Source of the DNA: an uncultured Lentisphaeria bacterium
Lineage (GTDB): Bacteria; Verrucomicrobiota; Lentisphaeria; Victivallales; Victivallaceae
Direction of reading: 5' to 3'
Assembly (NCBI GenBank): GCA_903821255.1
Contig: CAIJKT010000735.1
Span: 1-5,923, forward strand
Length of the DNA: 5,923 bases
This document shows positions 1-5,893 of this stretch, piece by piece. The position numbers and the translations under genes are program-made. The notes under the pieces are model-generated. The model saw nothing but the letters and a program-made list of their open reading frames with translations. It did not search any database and was not told where the DNA came from. Numbering within the stretch: the stretch's first letter is position 1; each line of letters opens with the position of its first letter.

Positions 1-816
1 CCAGATCATCGGTTTCAATTTGTATTTTTTGCAGATTTTGGAAACCTTATCCAGATGGCGGTTGAAAATCTCGAAGCCGCGCTCATAGCCGAACATATCC
101 ATGAATCTGCCGCGTCCCAGGTCGTGAGTCTCGTCCATGCCGACATGAATGCGGCGGCTGCCGAAAACCCGGCTCCACATCGCAACCATCTTGTCAATCA
201 GCTTGTAAGTGCCTGCTTCGTCAACCAGCATTACGCCGGCGGTGTCTCTGATTTTGCCGTAGGGCGCCCAGCGCAGAATTTGTTCCAGATGCCCCAGGGT
301 TTGAATGCAGGCAATCATTTCAATGCCCAGCGCCGCGGCATAGGTGTCTATCGCTTTCAGTTCATCTTCCGTATAGGCGCCGCGCATATAGCCGAAATAC
401 GGCTCGTCCGGCAGCTTGTAGGTGTCTTCCGTGTACAGCATCGCCTGATTGTAACCCATCAGCGCCAGTTGACGCAGCCATTTCTTGAAATGCGGCACGG
501 TCATTACCGCGTTCCGGGAGCAGTCCAGCATAATGCCCAGCGACTTGAAGACGGTGCTTTCTTCAGACTCAAGCCCGGCCAGCAGCGTTCCGACAGCCCT
601 GGACGCCATGCTGATGCCGCCGTATTCAATCGTGGCGCTGCCGCCTTTGCAGGAGACTGCGGAACGTCCGGAAGTTTTTGATTTAATGAATTTTACCTGA
701 ATGCCGTCTTTGCCTTTGCCGGCAACCACCGGATATTCCTCCGCCAATGCGGACAACATGGAATGGAGTTCAACCGGAGCGTCCTGTTTTGACCAGTAAA
801 TCTGTTTAATGGACAT
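1..816 (-). CDS. GH20 family beta-hexosaminidase-type glycosidase, 3' part outside the window
   Basis: Only the first 272 codons are present; the gene runs off the left edge with no stop. By family knowledge, GH20 enzymes remove terminal beta-linked N-acetylhexosamine (some members remove glucosamine) by substrate-assisted catalysis. Residues 1 to about 88 look like the alpha/beta domain that precedes the GH20 barrel. The barrel then starts with LGIMLDCSRNAV (93-104), where R101 is the expected substrate-binding arginine. It continues with MGYNQAMLYTEDTY (120-133), IQTLGHLEQIL (171-181) and the diagnostic HVGMDE (224-229). D228 and E229 form the catalytic Asp-Glu pair. The pattern resembles the compact bacterial GcnA/GH20C-like branch. 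No signal peptide is visible, so a cytoplasmic enzyme acting on imported oligosaccharides is likely. The start is fixed by a strong AGGAGGA (821-827, reverse strand) four bases upstream of the ATG. It is divergent from the exosortase gene. The family call is firm; the exact substrate is unknown. Confidence 0.92.
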   Translation of the reverse strand, partial: MSIKQIYWSKQDAPVELHSMLSALAEEYPVVAGKGKDGIQVKFIKSKTSGRSAVSCKGGSATIEYGGISMASRAVGTLLAGLESEESTVFKSLGIMLDCSRNAVMTVPHFKKWLRQLALMGYNQAMLYTEDTYKLPDEPYFGYMRGAYTEDELKAIDTYAAALGIEMIACIQTLGHLEQILRWAPYGKIRDTAGVMLVDEAGTYKLIDKMVAMWSRVFGSRRIHVGMDETHDLGRGRFMDMFGYERGFEIFNRHLDKVSKICKKYKLKPMIW

Positions 817-1051
817 TCTGTCCTCCTGAAAAATATTTTTAATGAATATCAATCTGATAAATATACTGCTTTATCCAATAAAAAAAATGGATTTTTCACT
901 CATTGCCAATGACAAATTCAACTTTCTTCATCCCTGCCGGTTAATTTTGCTTTTCTGATTCTTGTAAAGATTATGATTTGTTTATAACTTAAATGAGGTT
1001 ATAGTTAATTTCCATGATGGTTTTTCCGCTGTCTGTTTTTATGGAGAAGTA
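817..1051. promoter_or_regulatory. AT-rich divergent spacer between the GH20 and exosortase genes
   Basis: This 235-base spacer is clearly more AT-rich than the flanking genes and must contain the 5' signals for both divergent genes. On the plus strand, two weak sigma70-like arrangements can be written: TTGTAA (962-967) with TATAAC (983-988) at a short 15-base spacing, and TTGCTT (947-952) with TATGAT (972-977) at a long 19-base spacing. Neither is convincing. Two short inverted repeats could be operators: ATCCA/TGGAT (873-877 and 888-892), and CATTG-C-CAATG (901-911). Arms this short are also expected by chance in AT-rich DNA. GGAG (1043-1046) is the ribosome-binding site of the exosortase gene, five bases before its ATG. 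I see no riboswitch or RNA gene. Confidence 0.45.
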
Positions 1052-1624
1052 ATGGATAATGCTTGCAAACAACCTGTTGTTTATCTGCTGGCGTCGGTCA
1101 TTTATATTGTTGCGGCGGAATGTCTGGCGTTGAACTTTGCGCCCGGCATCAGCGCCCTGTTCTGTCAACCGGCGGCCTGGCTGACGCATGCAGTCACCGG
1201 GTGGCCGCTGAGTGTGGATGACCATGTCTTTGTGCTGGAAACTCCGGATATAATGCTGCGCATTACGGACAAATGCTCCGGCTTCTCGTTTTTTCTGACG
1301 CTCCATGCGGTGATTCTGCTGGCATTGGCATTGAAAAACCGGAAATTAATGATCATTTCCATTCCGCCGGTATTAGCCGCGAGCTATGTCCTGGCGGTCT
1401 CGCTGAATGTTTGCCGCGTAATGTGCAGCTACCAGTTGAAACGGCTCCTGCCGGGCGATTTTTTCATCCCCTATGCCGGAATTCATCTGTTTATCGGAGT
1501 AATGATTTTCATCCCGGCGCTGATCCTGGCTTTCATCTTAATCAATAAAACACTATTAAGATTTGAAAACAGCTTATGTACGGTAAATAGTATTCCAAAC
1601 CGGAAGCACGGAGAAACAAAGTAA
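1052..1624 (+). CDS. xrtK: Exosortase, probably exosortase K (XrtK) type
   Basis: This 190-residue integral membrane protein belongs to the exosortase/archaeosortase family, transpeptidase-like proteases that cut substrates at a C-terminal sorting signal in the cytoplasmic membrane. All three expected catalytic residues are visible. C75 lies in the C-S-G motif of DKCSGFSFF, R122 in NVCRV (119-123), and H145 in GIHLFIG (143-149). Hydrophobic segments fall at about 8-28, 78-95, 99-121 and 144-166, with a less clear one near 32-50. It is much shorter than EpsH-type exosortases and has no extra C-terminal domain. The start at 1052 follows GGAG with a five-base gap. The next gene on the same strand encodes a protein with an exosortase-type signal, which is the arrangement known for XrtK and MSEP-CTERM. 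The last residues, about 182-190 (PNRKHGETK), are encoded by the left arm of an inverted-repeat element. The exosortase assignment is secure; the K subtype rests on size and neighbour. Confidence 0.88.
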   Translation: MDNACKQPVVYLLASVIYIVAAECLALNFAPGISALFCQPAAWLTHAVTGWPLSVDDHVFVLETPDIMLRITDKCSGFSFFLTLHAVILLALALKNRKLMIISIPPVLAASYVLAVSLNVCRVMCSYQLKRLLPGDFFIPYAGIHLFIGVMIFIPALILAFILINKTLLRFENSLCTVNSIPNRKHGETK

Positions 1625-1694
1625 AAAATGTGGAGGATCTGCGTTAAATTTAAATCGGGAAATATATTTTTTCTGTGCCTCTGTGGTTAACTTT
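1597..1694. repeat. Imperfect inverted-repeat element between exosortase and substrate genes
   Basis: The left arm (1598-1616, beginning AACC and containing GAAGCACGGAGAAA) pairs imperfectly with the reverse complement of the right arm (1668-1688). That reverse complement begins AACC and contains GAGGCACAGAAAAA; 11 of these 14 positions match. The right arm also holds two tandem units, TCTGTGCC (1672-1679) and TCTGTGGT (1680-1687). A related TCTGCGTTAAATTT (1638-1651) sits between the arms and resembles TCTGTGGTTAACTTT (1680-1694). From memory, CTCTGTG/GTTAA-type repeats of this kind recur between genes in many environmental bacterial genomes; I could not check this. The element encodes the exosortase C-terminus and its stop codon, and ends just before the weak ribosome-binding site (AAGG, 1700-1703) of the next gene. 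It contains no gene of its own and may be a degenerate non-autonomous element. Confidence 0.5.
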
Positions 1695-1711
1695 TAAGAA
1701 AGGTATGCAAA

Positions 1712-4555
1712 ATGAGTCTGTTCAAGCACAAAATCGAACTCGGGCCGGCCGCCGATCCGCACTGGCTGCTGCTGGCGGTGTCACTGCCGCAAATTATCGT
1801 CGTGGCGATTCTGATGAGCGGGCTCGGACTGATTATCGGCGACATCACCTCGGCGCAACTGAGCAAATACGCCTGGCTGCTGGGAGCCGCCTCGCTTAAT
1901 ATCCTTTTCTGGACGGGGTTCAGCATTTACCGCTGCTGCCGGAAGAAATCATCAGGGCCGCTGGTGTCGCTGTTTCTGCTGTGGAGCCAGATACTGGTGC
2001 TTGCATTCAGCCTGCTCATGCTGTCGGAGGCGGTGCCGGGAACAGTCAATAACTTCATCTTCCCGGTCGAGACTTATTACGGCTATCTGTTCACTTTTTT
2101 CATGCCCGGCATCTTCTATCCGCTGCTGATTTTCGCGCAGACGCCGCTGCACATGCAACTGAAGAAGGAAACACTGATTTCCATCGTCATTATCGCCGCC
2201 GTGACCGGACTGGTTTATGTTCTGCTTTATCTGTTCCGGATGTCCAGCTACCTGTTTACCTCGGTCATCCTGCATCAAATCATGTTTTTCTGCACAGTAG
2301 TCGTGGTAATCGTGCTTTCGGTAATCTTTTTTACGGTGCTGCTGCGCCTGGCGGAACTCGTTTACCACCGGATTGAAAAGCATCCGGCGCTGATGGTTGC
2401 CTATACCGCCGTGATCGCGCTGGTGCTCCCGCTGGCCGGACTGCTGCTGAATATAACCATTCCATTCCCGGTCGATTTCCAGGACTGGCGGGTTTACGCG
2501 CTGACGATCCTCAACGGTATCGTGCTGCTGATTCCGTTCGGACGGAACCGCTGGCTCAATCTGCTGCTGTTTTTCTACAAAGCCATGCTCTACCCGTTCT
2601 GTTTATATTTTTTCCTGGTCTTTCTGCCGTATCTGCCGCTGGCGCTGTTTGCGATACTTGCCGCAGGCATGGGCTTCCTGATGCTCTCGCCGACGCTGCT
2701 GTTCTATGTGCAGTCCAGACGGATTTACTGCGACTTCAAACTGCTGTCGAATGACTTCAGCAGGCAACTGCTGCTGATTACCGGCATTGCCGGGATACTG
2801 CTGCTGCCGCTGTGGTATACAGCCGGAAGCATCTGCGACCGGATTGTGATAAACCCGGCGCTGGATTTTGTCTTCAGCAGCGATTACGCCAAAAGCGCGG
2901 ACAGCATTGCCGCCGGCAAACCCAGGATCAAGTCAGTCATCGCCAAAATCAATGACTGGAAACACGGCGTGGAAATGCCGTATCTCGACTTTTATTATCA
3001 ATGGCTGGTGTTCGACAACCTGACCATTCCCGACAAGAAACTGAAGGAAATGTACGAGAAGATATTCGACGAGGAATTTAAATCCGGCTGGCGGCATTCT
3101 TCTTTCCGGCAGATCCGGCGGTTCCCCAGGCAGCGCCTCTCCGGACTGGAAAAACATCTGCCCAACCCGCAGATCGCAATCGTTTCCGCGCAATCCGAAA
3201 TCAAGCCTCTCGGCGACGGCACGGTTAAAAACCGCGTCCGGCTGGAGATCAAAAACAATTCCGGCAGCAGCAACTCGGAATTTGTGACGGAAATCAAACT
3301 GCCGCGCGAGGTTTTCATCAGCGGATTCTGGCTGAAAGTGGACGGACAGGAAGTTCCCGGTAAAATCTTCGAGCGCAAGAGCGCGCTGTGGACCTACGAA
3401 ATGATTACGGAGACTTCCCGCCGCGACCCCGGCATCCTGTTTTATAATACTCCGCTGACTGTCAGGCTGCATGTATATCCGTTCAGCATCGGCGAAACCA
3501 GACAGGCGGATGTCGAATTTCTCTATCCGTCCATGCTCCGGCCCGACATCAGCATCGGCGGCGTCAGGATTGACGCCGCCCCCGGACAAAATGAAAGCGC
3601 CGACAACGGCAATCTGGTGGTGATGCCGCCGGAACAGATTGCGGGCATGCCGCTTTTCGAGCGCCAGCCAGTGCTAGAATTCGTCATCAACCGACGGGAT
3701 ATGGAAGCGGCGCTGAATCATAACGGGCGCATGCTGAAACGGATCGCGGAACTGTTCCGGATCAGGGAATACAATCTCTCGGTCGCCGCACTCGACGCCA
3801 AAGTACTGCTGCACAACCGGGACATTGGCAATCTGCCCGAAGACGTCAAACTCCTGGAGCAGACGCAGCCCGGCAGTCCCGCCGATACTGGCTTCATGCC
3901 GGAAAGAACCATCAAACAGCGGCTGCTGGAATGGGAGCAGAGCAAATCCCCGGATAAGTTTCCGGTAATCGTCTATATCTGCTCCAAACCGGAAAAGATC
4001 AATCTGCGCGATTTTGACTACTTCGATATGCTGATGCCGGAAACCGGCTTCTTTGTCGTCTCTGACATGGCGGGCAATCTGCAGAAATTCGATATCGCCG
4101 GAAACCGTGTCTCCGCCCTGGACATCCGGCCGAAATTAAGAAAAACATTCCGCGTCGGCATCTGGCAGATACTCCCCGCGGACCAGCCTTATATCACCGC
4201 CGTGGCGAAAGACAAACCGATGCTCTACAAACAGGCGCAGGAAATGCTGAACAACTACATGGTGATGCTCTATAATCCCTCGCTGAAAGCCCGGACTTAT
4301 CCCCGGCTGGTCAGTGAAAGCAAAAAGACCGGCATCATGCTGCCGCTGACGTCCTACATCGTGCTTGAGAGTTCCTCTCAGTGGAAAATGCTGGAGCGCG
4401 TGGAAAAGCACAAATTGAGAAACCGTTCCGAGCTGGAAAAAGATGAAGTGGACGCACCTGCCCCCTCCGCCTGGTTGCTGCTTATCGGGTTTGCGGCATT
4501 CTTCCTGTTCCACAACCGCAGGCAGATACTCCGCGGCAAAGAAGAAAATTGTTAG
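1712..4555 (+). CDS. MSEP-CTERM-type exosortase substrate: polytopic membrane protein with VIT-like domain
   Basis: This 947-residue protein has three parts. Residues 1-375 hold about 11 hydrophobic segments, roughly at 18-43, 54-73, 83-104, 124-142, 153-175, 185-212, 227-248, 259-276, 283-304, 305-332 and 352-371. Residues about 380-910 are hydrophilic. They include a VIT (vault/inter-alpha-trypsin) domain at about 487-606, with the conserved pattern ISGFWLKVDGQEVPGKIFERK (536-556), YE (562-563), RDPGIL (571-576), and PFSIGETR (590-597) leading to FLYP. Further on, GIMLPLTSYIVLES (874-887) resembles the segment that closes many VIT/VWA proteins. I see no DxSxS metal site, so any VWA fold is degenerate. 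The C-terminus carries DAPAPSAW (914-921), a hydrophobic stretch (921-934) and a basic tail with R936, R937 and R941, the three-part layout of an exosortase signal. It lies 87 bases after the exosortase gene and is probably its dedicated substrate. AAGG (1700-1703) precedes the ATG by eight bases. The protein's biological role is unknown. Confidence 0.87.
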   Translation: MSLFKHKIELGPAADPHWLLLAVSLPQIIVVAILMSGLGLIIGDITSAQLSKYAWLLGAASLNILFWTGFSIYRCCRKKSSGPLVSLFLLWSQILVLAFSLLMLSEAVPGTVNNFIFPVETYYGYLFTFFMPGIFYPLLIFAQTPLHMQLKKETLISIVIIAAVTGLVYVLLYLFRMSSYLFTSVILHQIMFFCTVVVVIVLSVIFFTVLLRLAELVYHRIEKHPALMVAYTAVIALVLPLAGLLLNITIPFPVDFQDWRVYALTILNGIVLLIPFGRNRWLNLLLFFYKAMLYPFCLYFFLVFLPYLPLALFAILAAGMGFLMLSPTLLFYVQSRRIYCDFKLLSNDFSRQLLLITGIAGILLLPLWYTAGSICDRIVINPALDFVFSSDYAKSADSIAAGKPRIKSVIAKINDWKHGVEMPYLDFYYQWLVFDNLTIPDKKLKEMYEKIFDEEFKSGWRHSSFRQIRRFPRQRLSGLEKHLPNPQIAIVSAQSEIKPLGDGTVKNRVRLEIKNNSGSSNSEFVTEIKLPREVFISGFWLKVDGQEVPGKIFERKSALWTYEMITETSRRDPGILFYNTPLTVRLHVYPFSIGETRQADVEFLYPSMLRPDISIGGVRIDAAPGQNESADNGNLVVMPPEQIAGMPLFERQPVLEFVINRRDMEAALNHNGRMLKRIAELFRIREYNLSVAALDAKVLLHNRDIGNLPEDVKLLEQTQPGSPADTGFMPERTIKQRLLEWEQSKSPDKFPVIVYICSKPEKINLRDFDYFDMLMPETGFFVVSDMAGNLQKFDIAGNRVSALDIRPKLRKTFRVGIWQILPADQPYITAVAKDKPMLYKQAQEMLNNYMVMLYNPSLKARTYPRLVSESKKTGIMLPLTSYIVLESSSQWKMLERVEKHKLRNRSELEKDEVDAPAPSAWLLLIGFAAFFLFHNRRQILRGKEENC
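4451..4516 (+). other. C-terminal exosortase sorting signal within the 947-residue protein
   Basis: This is the coding segment for residues 914-935: the motif DAPAPSAW followed by the hydrophobic run to F933, before the basic cluster. The order of short motif, transmembrane helix and positive tail matches PEP-CTERM-like signals. The core P-A-P-S-A-W aligns with the classical P-E-P-S-T-W, with Ala in place of the usual Glu. Cleavage would be expected within or near the motif, leaving the rest of the protein anchored by its N-terminal helices. The cleavage site is inferred by analogy only. Confidence 0.75.
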
Positions 4556-4798: not shown

Positions 4799-5461
4799 AT
4801 GAGTGGAGGAAGAGGATCTTTATTAGTGGCGGCGGGAATTGCCATGCTTGCGGGATTGCTCGGAAGCGGGTGCGCAACGAACCGGGGAATTCTGGATGTG
4901 CAAGTAAACCAACCCCTGAATCCGGATTCAGGCCCCGCGGTGATGATTGCCCGCGTTACCGACTGCCGTAAGTTCGAGGAGGCGCCAGCCGACCCTTCGA
5001 TCCCCTCTCTCAAGGGAAATGAGATCAGCGACAAAGCCATAACCTCACGTGCGATAGCCCGCAAACGCAATACATTTGGAAAAGCTCTCGGGGACATTCT
5101 TCTGCCCGAAGGCAGAACCGTGGAAAACGTGGTTCGGGATGCGCTGGTGAAGTCATTTCGCGAGGCTGGATATCGCGTAATAGACAATGCCTCGCAGTCA
5201 AAGGAAAAGTATGTGACTATAGAGGCGGATATAGAACAATTCTGGGCATGGTGCAATCCCGGATTCTGGTCTATTTCACTCAATTTTGAAGCTAAAGTTA
5301 AAATCAAAGGCGCTGTTCCGCCATTCACGGACGGCGAGACGGTGCGCGGGTATGTCGAGACGCACACGCAGATGGCTGACACAAGCGCATGGCTGAACGC
5401 GATCAACAAGGGAATAGAAGCGTTTTCCGGAGAAGTGAAGAAACGGCTTGAGAAGAAATAA
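4799..5461 (+). CDS. Putative YajG-like lipoprotein
   Basis: The 220-residue product begins with a short polar stretch containing R5, then a hydrophobic segment (8-22) ending in LLGSGC. C25 is the likely lipidated cysteine. The residue three before it is Gly rather than the usual Leu, Val or Ile, so the lipobox is slightly unusual. The mature part has beta-strand-like VMIARVTDCRKFEE (48-61), GDILLPEGRTVENVVRDALVKSFREAGYRVI (98-128), and YVTIEADIEQFWAWCNPGFWSISLNFEAKVKIKG (138-171). It ends in an amphipathic helix with a basic terminus. This order (Asp/Arg-rich strand, gly-rich loop, helix with 'GYRV', then a tryptophan-rich strand pair) is like the YajG family of uncharacterised envelope lipoproteins. 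The family match is from pattern recognition and is moderate; the lipoprotein call is stronger. It sits alone, convergent with the Sel1 gene. Function unknown. Confidence 0.8.
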   Translation: MSGGRGSLLVAAGIAMLAGLLGSGCATNRGILDVQVNQPLNPDSGPAVMIARVTDCRKFEEAPADPSIPSLKGNEISDKAITSRAIARKRNTFGKALGDILLPEGRTVENVVRDALVKSFREAGYRVIDNASQSKEKYVTIEADIEQFWAWCNPGFWSISLNFEAKVKIKGAVPPFTDGETVRGYVETHTQMADTSAWLNAINKGIEAFSGEVKKRLEKK

Positions 5462-5599: not shown

Positions 5600-5893
5600 C
5601 TATTTTTTCCGTTGCTTGATTACTTCAAGCAATTCACGGGCCTGCTCATAGCCCTGTTTCGCAGATTTCCGGAACCATTTGGCAGCTTCAACTTTATTTT
5701 TTATGATGCCGTCACCGAATTGATAGCAGCAGCCAAGCAAGTATTGCGCTTCAGCATCGCCCTGCCCGGCATCATTACGGTACTGTTTTACTGCGTCAAC
5801 AAGTTCTTTCTTTATGCTGATGCATTTTGCATAACGTTTTCTAAGCAAATCCAGCTTTTTCGTACTATTAGGTTCAATTTTTACAGATTTCAT
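5600..5893 (-). CDS. Small Sel1-repeat (SLR) protein
   Basis: The product is 97 residues. By family knowledge, Sel1-like repeats are TPR-like helical pairs that scaffold protein-protein contacts. One complete repeat is visible at about 46-81: DAEAQYLLGCCYQFGDG followed by KVEAAKWFRKSAKQGYEQA. It has the hallmark AxxLGxxYxxG and EAxxWxxxxAxxG patterns. Before it, VDAVKQYRNDAGQG (32-45) looks like the second half of an earlier, worn repeat, and EQARELL (83-89) starts a third. The N-terminus (1-22) is charged with no signal peptide, so the protein is probably cytoplasmic, unlike many exported SLR proteins. The start at 5893 is supported by AGGA seven bases upstream on the coding strand, with AAGG also abutting it. 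Longer SLR proteins are common, so this may be a trimmed relative, but the frame is intact. Its base composition looks more AT-rich than the sorting-pair genes. Confidence 0.82.
   Translation of the reverse strand: MKSVKIEPNSTKKLDLLRKRYAKCISIKKELVDAVKQYRNDAGQGDAEAQYLLGCCYQFGDGIIKNKVEAAKWFRKSAKQGYEQARELLEVIKQRKK

Follow-up and report, generated by a model that had tools for sequence, protein, structure and literature searches.

Exosortases are usually viewed as a means of delivering secreted proteins to the cell surface. Passages of two papers (PMC12188702, PMC3237569) describe EpsH-type systems as serving numerous substrates that carry N-terminal signal peptides, and as often lying near polysaccharide genes. 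Passages of the second paper (PMC3237569) also cover proteins of the vault/ITI type, including marine proteobacterial sortase targets (TIGR03788), whose dedicated sortase is encoded next door, and report that GlyGly-CTERM, LPXTG and PEP-CTERM tails are swapped within one vault/ITI-type family. The locus considered here shares with the EpsH-type/PEP-CTERM systems (TIGR02602, PF07589) the enzyme superfamily, a tripartite tail and a Pro-x-Pro motif, but it has one substrate, predicted to be polytopic, and a short enzyme. Unlike the TIGR03788-type targets, which are not known to be polytopic and whose dedicated enzyme is a sortase, this predicted polytopic substrate stands beside an exosortase. 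With the exosortase K (XrtK)/MSEP-CTERM system (TIGR04287/TIGR04286) the locus has in common the gene pair, the enzyme size, the Cys-Arg-His set, the length and architecture of the substrate and, in the relatives tested, one substrate per genome; it differs in an enzyme score below the family cut-off, in a signal that reads APAPS rather than MSEP, and in the vWA DxS pair, which is missing from its substrate and the two nearest relatives. Neither "MSEP-CTERM" nor "exosortase K" occurs in the full text of 5.39 million open papers.

A sequence-only reading of the window (the whole 5,923-nt stretch of DNA that was analysed) had reported an exosortase with intact C75, R122 and H145, directly beside a 947-residue protein with an exosortase-type C-terminal signal. 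Both open reading frames have the coordinates and lengths reported, and C75, R122 and H145 are where that reading placed them. The enzyme gene lies upstream, with a gap of 87 nt, and has the following features.

1052..1624, plus strand: XrtK-like exosortase, 190 aa (TIGR04287 33.1 bits, cut-off 55; TIGR04178 26.5, cut-off 23; PF09721 34.4, cut-off 25.7)
1274..1276, plus strand: codon of Cys75, the presumed nucleophile (C in 75 of 75 alignment rows)
1415..1417, plus strand: codon of Arg122 (R in 75 of 75 alignment rows)
1484..1486, plus strand: codon of His145 (H in 75 of 75 alignment rows)

Membership in the exosortase superfamily is indicated by the TIGR04178 and PF09721 scores, both above their cut-offs, and by the Cys-Arg-His set. 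In the exosortase alignment, whose 75 rows represent 74 distinct sequences because the window enzyme was entered twice, C75, R122, H145 and G149 are invariant and N119 is kept in 74 rows. The best-scoring subtype is exosortase K, and no other subtype scored better; in particular, XrtN is absent from the profile matches at E<=1. The link to exosortase K and MSEP-CTERM drawn by the sequence-only reading stands as regards the best subtype and the neighbour, which exceeds the TIGR04286 cut-off, but not as regards the curated NCBI cut-off for the enzyme (TIGR04287, 33.1 vs 55) or the literal motif. TIGR04287 matches 49 of the 52 members of an enzyme alignment at E<=0.001 (49 of the 74 enzymes from the window and the loci, plus P0002-P0004). 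The AlphaFold2 model of the enzyme has a pLDDT of 90.6; a structure search with it gave no fold match at E<=0.001, and a profile search for solved relatives gave one match at chance level (E 0.39).

The substrate consists of the following parts.

1712..4555, plus strand: MSEP-CTERM family substrate, 947 aa (TIGR04286 418.7 bits, cut-off 150)
1757..2875, plus strand: predicted N-terminal polytopic membrane domain, residues 16-388, about 11 passes counted by eye (model helices; positive-inside pattern, 65 rows)
3173..3529, plus strand: VIT domain, residues about 488-606 (PF08487 at 504-601; model strands)
3665..4201, plus strand: vWA-like domain, residues about 652-830, limits read from the model (Foldseek; alignment)
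4349..4420, plus strand: conserved pre-tail segment, residues 880-903, including YIVLESSSQWKMLERVEKHKLR (E886, Q890 and L894 invariant in 65 rows)
4445..4552, plus strand: C-terminal signal, residues 912-947, with DAPAPS motif, TM helix and basic end (sequence; tail alignment)

The TIGR04286 match is above the curated cut-off and spans residues 15-937, and the AlphaFold2 model has a pLDDT of 87.4 and a pTM of 0.85. The Pfam VIT profile scores 30.4 (cut-off 26.5). In the vWA-like domain, the alignment places NxR where a MIDAS-type DxS would stand, and the DxS pair is likewise gone in the two nearest relatives. The Foldseek ranking of the substrate model, which gives no aligned ranges, begins with inter-alpha-inhibitor heavy chain 1 (ITIH1; PDB 6fpy, E 7.3e-9, probability 1.00), followed by several vWA domains. 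ITIH1 is eukaryotic and is not known to involve an exosortase; since the identity is 10-11%, the TM-scores are 0.18-0.26 and the rmsd is about 15, the domains match but the whole protein does not. The VIT region and the pre-tail segment also recall the exosortase N/VIT protein system (TIGR04476/TIGR04477). However, this VIT protein profile scores 41.1 bits over three stretches of the window substrate, and 18.7 against its C-terminal 120 aa, far under the cut-off of 250, and the enzyme best matches XrtK.

The tail, DEVDAPAPSAWLLLIGFAAFFLFHNRRQILRGKEENC, consists of the motif, a hydrophobic helix and basic residues, and the model has a pLDDT under 50 in the linker 913-919. The second Pro of the tail, P918, is kept in 63 of the 65 rows of the substrate alignment (53 of the 80 loci, the window and P0006-P0016). 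Ahead of its C-terminal helix, the window substrate lacks the MSEP motif in literal form; M, E and P are invariant in 28 aligned Bacteroidota-type tails (of 39). The window substrate also scores below the PEP-CTERM cut-off of 20.7: PF07589 gives 14.6 with the C-terminal 120 aa and 10.4 with the full-length protein. Tails adjacent to XrtK can themselves look PEP-like: TIGR02595 matches 5 of 36 PVC-type tails and 4 of 28 Bacteroidota-type tails at E<=0.016, and the tail of L061 scores 19.8. A clean P-x-P is missing from some XrtK-adjacent tails (L097, L106, L107, L109). Note that the PVC-type tail alignment omits 5 of 41 tails (L001, L004, L009, L024, L061), that the tail of L018 is cut off by a contig end, and that each alignment includes one contig-edge row in which XrtK is unseen (L003, PVC-type; L065, Bacteroidota-type).

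By prediction, the N-terminal end of the substrate anchors it in the inner membrane; residues 16-388 form a multi-helix domain that is predicted with good confidence and has invariant residues across the 65 rows. This domain bears on a classical sorting route, in which XrtK and a further cut would direct the VIT-vWA portion to the outer membrane or the surface in the manner of PEP-CTERM proteins. Such a route would agree with passages that describe exosortase-processed proteins as surface-attached or released (PMC12188702) and with the sorting tails borne by bacterial vault/ITI relatives (PMC3237569). However, cleavage of the tail should not release a polytopic substrate, so that sorting is doubtful, and we regard this route as improbable. 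With the other end of the substrate predicted to lie in the membrane, the enzyme probably exchanges or frees the tail and does not sort the substrate to the surface.

The reading that we favour, and hold to be reasonably probable, is a dedicated pair of one exosortase and one substrate that replaces or removes the tail anchor of a VIT-vWA protein held in the inner membrane. Cys75, with Arg122 and His145, would cut beside the A-P-A-P motif on the periplasmic side of the inner membrane, so that the neighbouring substrate would lose its C-terminal helix and basic end. The acyl group would then most likely pass to an amine-bearing molecule, for instance an aminolipid, or to a glycan of the envelope; an aminolipid acceptor has been proposed for archaeosortase A. 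The N-terminal helices would keep the substrate in the inner membrane, without sorting or release, and its C terminus would be freed, re-anchored or covalently coupled, so that the periplasmic VIT-vWA module ends up C-terminally coupled or free. A more specific version, to which we give a rather low probability, is that XrtK and its kin are not sorting enzymes but ligases that attach a lipid or glycan of the envelope to the C terminus of the VIT-vWA protein, which is held in the membrane, and so form a covalent bridge between inner membrane and envelope. If so, bacteria would have, in fold and in C-terminal processing, a counterpart to the coupling of inter-alpha-inhibitor heavy chains to glycosaminoglycans. 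A one-to-one pair with a polytopic substrate misfits the surface-delivery view of exosortases, and it isolates the chemistry to one enzyme, one tail and one product.

Tabulation of the neighbours across the relatives' loci confirmed that the two genes form the conserved core of their surroundings. Among the loci studied (the best 80 of 211 relatives), XrtK lies upstream of the substrate in 73, in addition to the window. Of the remaining seven, four have a substrate that starts less than 250 nt from a contig end (L001, L003, L040, L065), L018 has a transposase in the place of XrtK with a contig end just past it, and the flanks fetched for L004 and L009 contain no XrtK. Spacing is <=50 nt in 67 of 74 pairs. 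In the phylum of the closest relative, the substrate was found at E<=1e-30 in 28 of 387 genomes (26 over the cut-off). XrtK adjoins it in 24 of these, except that the two are 1.8 kb apart in G198; two stop at a contig edge (G238, G398), and G007 and G210 have no XrtK among the at most 8 candidates scored per genome. Conversely, all 23 genomes of this phylum with an XrtK match at E<=1e-16 contain the substrate. In 326 genomes of Bacteroidota, the phylum of G029, the substrate occurs in 5 and XrtK, sought among at most 10 candidates per genome, in 4, adjacent in each. Both samples contain the centre genome and genomes already selected, so that these frequencies are not unbiased. Enzyme and substrate distances are correlated (r 0.71 overall, 0.54 in the PVC-type set); we set this aside as proof of pairing because shared ancestry, which partly accounts for it, also yields correlation.

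Substrates in genomes in which no XrtK was found carry other tails. Four genomes have the substrate and no XrtK found: two tails match PEP (L004 20.7, L009 23.2; cut-off 16), one matches PID (L114 33.3; cut-off 26) and one is VPDSG-like (L103 13.1, below the cut-off of 22). The PID tail is a clean case. PID matches none of the 28 Bacteroidota-type tails at E<=0.016, and the genome of L114, G582, contains three other PID proteins and one exosortase match of 201 aa; at E<=1e-8, none of the at most 10 candidates scored there matches XrtK. The follow-up searches, including these, covered samples of 10, 10 and 7 genomes. The two PEP tails are only suggestive, because XrtK-adjacent tails of both types also match the PEP model. 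Moreover, the absence of XrtK from G002 is judged from the L004 flanks and TIGR04178 only, a profile that, at E<=0.001, did not detect XrtK in G011. In a FastTree tree, which has many long branches, XrtK presence requires three changes over 88 scored rows (L001, L003, L018, L040, L065, P0014 and P0015 unscored). We claim only at least two, as the XrtK-less rows comprise one from Bacteroidota and three of PVC type. Genomes in which no XrtK was found and the substrate has the tail of another system, most clearly PID-CTERM in G582, are natural specificity controls.

These cases also bear on a model without proteolysis, in which the tail helix would serve for docking and XrtK would be a permanent part of the complex that it forms with the substrate in the membrane. 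The tight pairing, with genes that overlap in 59 of 74 pairs (starts chosen mechanically), speaks for this model. Against it, Cys, Arg and His are invariant in all rows, and the one clear XrtK-less case keeps a tail, recognisable as a signal for a different exosortase system; we consider the model unlikely. For the favoured reading of a dedicated, tail-processing pair, sequence comparison shows the anatomy, the invariant triad, the pairing, the single substrate in the relatives tested and the other tails where XrtK was not found; the topology is predicted, and the cleavage, the acceptor and the biological role are inferred, the first two by analogy.

The MSEP-CTERM neighbour is probably the only substrate of the enzyme. 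In agreement with the one-to-one system cited by the sequence-only reading, each of 40 relatives' genomes, which we chose from those of the 80 loci, contains one substrate over the cut-off (the copy in G015 is cut by a contig end). When relatives were scanned for other proteins with the same signal, the single clear tail-profile match was the substrate's own tail in 11 PVC-type and 8 Bacteroidota-type genomes; all 19 were chosen as having 0 PEP-CTERM matches, which favours this outcome, and 150 of 257 candidates were scored in G040. Weaker second matches occur in G036 (E 0.0116) and G031 (3.5e-4, helix part only, with one stop inside). Among the matches listed, PEP-CTERM occurs in 19 of the 40 genomes (150 of 176 candidates scored in G008), and in 10 of the 40 XrtK is the only TIGR04178 match with 0 PEP-CTERM matches listed.

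The genome of the closest relative, G001, has a second, long exosortase (TIGR02602 75.7, cut-off 105.55), whose locus includes a 233-aa protein ending in QPAPSIICTLVAGIIAIGSVGWRNIF, a PAPS tail. This raises the alternative that the pair is not private in its organism, the tail being also read by, or the enzyme also serving, a second system of this kind. The G001 tail search argues otherwise, as it clearly finds only the substrate's own tail (1.2e-7; next match 0.084), as do the lack of PF07589 among the matches listed for G001 and the 10 genomes in which XrtK stands alone. We give this alternative little credence and retain the dedicated pair.

Upstream of the pair, the window contains a neighbour that is not part of the system.

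1..852, minus strand: divergently oriented GH20-type glycosidase gene, cut by the window edge (PF00728 35.1 bits)

A GH20C gene likewise lies upstream of the pair in L002, where it is one of the four closest genes, together with a CPSase small chain, an AraC-type and a URO-D-like gene. In line with the sequence-only reading, a scan of five ORFs of the window recognised no exopolysaccharide gene. A link to exopolysaccharide was dropped, no such cluster being prominent among the recurrent neighbour groups listed. Neighbour group P370 was also rejected, since it seems to consist of shadow ORFs on the strand opposite to the 204-aa and HTH_34 genes. In the window, Rfam and tRNA scans gave no matches. 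The terminator scan showed no excess over expectation and the promoter scan gave 14 sites against 6.2 expected; neither is used in the argument. One neighbour group, present at 4 loci, has by eye the look of a sugar-nucleotide epimerase.

Exosortase K (XrtK, TIGR04287) and the MSEP-CTERM family (TIGR04286) are both defined by NCBI models, and the pair is reported to be one-to-one. The window carries both genes on one strand, with a gap of 87 nt:

1052-1624, plus strand: exosortase gene, 190 aa
1712-4555, plus strand: MSEP-CTERM substrate gene, 947 aa

Exosortase K is the NCBI model that the enzyme matches best (33.1 bits, under its cut-off of 55); next comes the superfamily signature (26.5, over its cut-off of 23), and the enzyme qualifies for Pfam PF09721. 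The subtype suggested from the sequence alone is retained, since no other subtype model outscores exosortase K. C75, R122, H145, and G149 are invariant across 75 alignment rows (74 distinct enzyme sequences). The structure model (pLDDT 90.6) contains five helices of at least 17 residues and a small strand region; from the helix order and basic loops, we read C75, R122, and H145 as lying on the periplasmic face. Profile comparison with solved structures gave a chance-level match alone, and the fold search returned nothing at E 0.001 or better. Protein matches assign the window to a Victivallaceae/Lentisphaeria lineage: enzyme P0001 (Victivallaceae according to its source) is 98% identical, and the substrate is 81% identical to those of two Lentisphaeria-titled records.

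The enzyme lies upstream of the substrate in 73 of the 80 best loci of 211 relatives, and the gap is 50 nt or less in 67 of 74 enzyme-substrate pairs; wider gaps include 0.3 kb (L059) and 0.9-1.75 kb (L015, L016, L024). In four of the seven loci without an upstream enzyme (L001, L003, L040, L065) the substrate starts close to a contig end, in L018 a transposase occupies the expected place, and in L004 and L009 XrtK is absent from the fetched flanks. In the phylum of G001, the closest relative's genome, the substrate was found in 28 of 387 genomes (26 over the cut-off), with the enzyme beside or near it in 24; two are contig edges, and G007 and G210 hold a substrate without the enzyme. A strong enzyme match (E<=1e-16) occurs in 23 genomes, each of which also has the substrate; one of these matches, in G295, has an internal stop. 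The match in G363 is weaker (1.7e-13), yet adjoins the substrate. In the phylum of G029 (Bacteroidota), the substrate occurs in 5 of 326 genomes, four of which also have the enzyme. Carriers of the system are few in these samples (7% and 1.5%). The dedicated pair proposed in the sequence-only reading is supported by these relatives.

Genome-wide counts describe relatives of the window organism, not its own genome. Each of 40 genomes contains one substrate-family member over the cut-off (in G015 it is truncated at a contig end); most of the additional low-scoring matches correspond to VIT regions in other proteins. A tail-profile search of 19 genomes, all with zero PEP-CTERM matches (19 of the 40 do have such matches), ranked the genome's own substrate tail first every time, with E values of at most 3.4e-7 in 11 PVC genomes and 3.7e-14 in 8 Bacteroidota genomes. 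The next-ranked matches were 0.0116 in the PVC set and 3.5e-4, covering the helix part only, in the Bacteroidota set. For the relatives searched, the proposed single-substrate relationship is supported. In 10 of the 40 genomes, the enzyme is the sole TIGR04178 match and there are zero PEP-CTERM matches. G001 is outside these ten, having a second exosortase:

L081:8119-13899: second exosortase locus of G001, with a long exosortase, a protein weakly matching EpsI, a PrsT-like TPR protein, and a 233-aa protein

The 233-aa protein has a PAPS tail and matches DUF4114 at 26.7 bits, just under the cut-off of 27.

In four genomes the substrate occurs without a detected XrtK.

Substrates where no XrtK was found (locus/genome; tail; tail model score; other exosortase matches; proteins matching the tail model)
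L004/G002; NVPEPATVWLL; PEP-CTERM 20.7, cut-off 16; 3; 17 PEP, which may or may not include the substrate
L009/G007; ATPEPSTWGLML; PEP-CTERM 23.2, cut-off 16; 1; 9 PEP, substrate included
L103/G210; TVPDAPGTFALTALG; VPDSG 13.1, below cut-off 22; 3; 4 VPDSG, substrate not among them
L114/G582; TDVPIDGEVWVLLAGG; PID-CTERM 33.3, cut-off 26; 1; 3 PID in addition to the substrate

XrtK absence is based on flanks and the TIGR04178 search for G002, with the phylum-wide enzyme search (387 genomes) as a further basis for G007 and G210, and on the phylum-wide search (326 genomes) plus an exosortase search of its genome for G582. The PID case is clean, because the PID model matches 0 of 28 Bacteroidota-type tails and G038, with XrtK and six PID proteins, still has an MSEP substrate tail, whereas the PEP cases are only suggestive, because in the two XrtK tail sets 5 of 36 and 4 of 28 tails also score with the PEP model; L061 and L017 combine XrtK with a PEP-scoring tail. 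Two Hymenobacter proteins have PID-like tails under the cut-off (21.3, 18.3). The XrtK presence/absence pattern takes three changes on a quick tree with uncertain branches. At L009:9585-9878, a ParE-type toxin gene (PF05016) occupies XrtK's expected place.

TIGR04286 spans almost all of the substrate (418.7, cut-off 150), and the structure model (pLDDT 87.4, pTM 0.85) shows the following parts:

Residues 16-388: helical domain (structure model)
Residues 488-606: VIT strands (structure model)
vWA-like domain (structure model)
Window 4349-4420: conserved segment before the tail
Residues 913-919: low-confidence linker (structure model)
Residues 920-946: final helix (structure model)

Mean K+R counts of loops 1-8 alternate (2.28, 1.17, 2.94, 0.92, 2.17, 1.09, 3.42, 0.58; 65 rows), which places the N terminus inside; the protein is predicted to make about 11 passes, with the basic end likewise inside and the VIT-vWA module periplasmic. 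Among PDB structures, the model is matched best by that of inter-alpha-inhibitor heavy chain 1 (E 7.3e-9, probability 1.00, TM-scores only 0.18-0.26), and the best sequence-profile match is ITIH4 (E 0.00026, VIT region). The vWA D-x-S pair is kept in 62 of 65 rows, the only exceptions being the window, P0006, and P0007. The window has N-R-R at this position (3689-3697, residues 660-662) and its two closest relatives have N-x-K; metal binding has therefore probably been lost in this clade. The pre-tail segment of the window and the corresponding C-terminal regions of L009, L061, and L114 show weak alignments to models for XrtN-VIT, PEP_integral, or marine sortase targets, which would fit a single juxtamembrane module placed ahead of different sorting tails.

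The mechanism proposed for archaeosortase A involves a catalytic cysteine, a thioester, and transfer to an aminolipid (PMC7157517), and by analogy this chemistry may carry over to the window pair. The geometry differs, however: tail removal should not free the substrate, which would stay held by its many N-terminal helices, so that the product would be a membrane protein with its periplasmic C terminus freed or newly coupled. Inter-alpha-inhibitor heavy chains have C-terminal pro-domains, and their C termini become ester-linked to glycosaminoglycan (PMC7170535). The substrate is alike in fold. This parallel does not show that the chemistry is shared, but it underlies a speculative reading in which the enzyme might couple the substrate's C terminus to the envelope.

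Among vault/ITI relatives, one-target dedicated systems are known and GlyGly-CTERM, LPXTG, and PEP-CTERM tails are exchanged (PMC3237569), and in Flavobacterium johnsoniae xrtF and a neighbour gene are among validated surface-colonisation genes (PMC10936215). Among the open full-text papers searched, none contained 'MSEP-CTERM' or 'exosortase K', and none combined 'exosortase' with 'VIT domain'. As far as our searches show, three features are new: the different tails of substrates with no detected XrtK, the ITIH-like and polytopic anatomy of the substrate, and a recurrent HTH_34 cluster.

Tabulating neighbours left the pair as the core, with no third gene general to the neighbourhood. However, of 55 loci whose upstream sequence reaches at least 4 kb, 17 have this cluster, with a same-strand gene for a 204-aa membrane protein upstream (L011, L014, L019, L024, L026, L028, L030, L031, L032, L038, L051, L053, L056, L060, L070, L075, L078). 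These are 9 Bacteroidota-type and 8 PVC-type loci, from two phyla, and the genes keep one orientation relative to the pair. An HTH_34-type regulator also lies upstream in 15 of them and follows the pair in the other two (L038, L075), and DUF4153 is near the pair in 7; Pfam names were assigned via representatives. The cluster is absent from the window and L002. It may represent a wider ancestral cluster. Downstream in the window are a probable lipoprotein (4799-5461; LGSGC near the start, by eye; no family over cut-off) and, on the minus strand, a Sel1-repeat protein (5600-5893).
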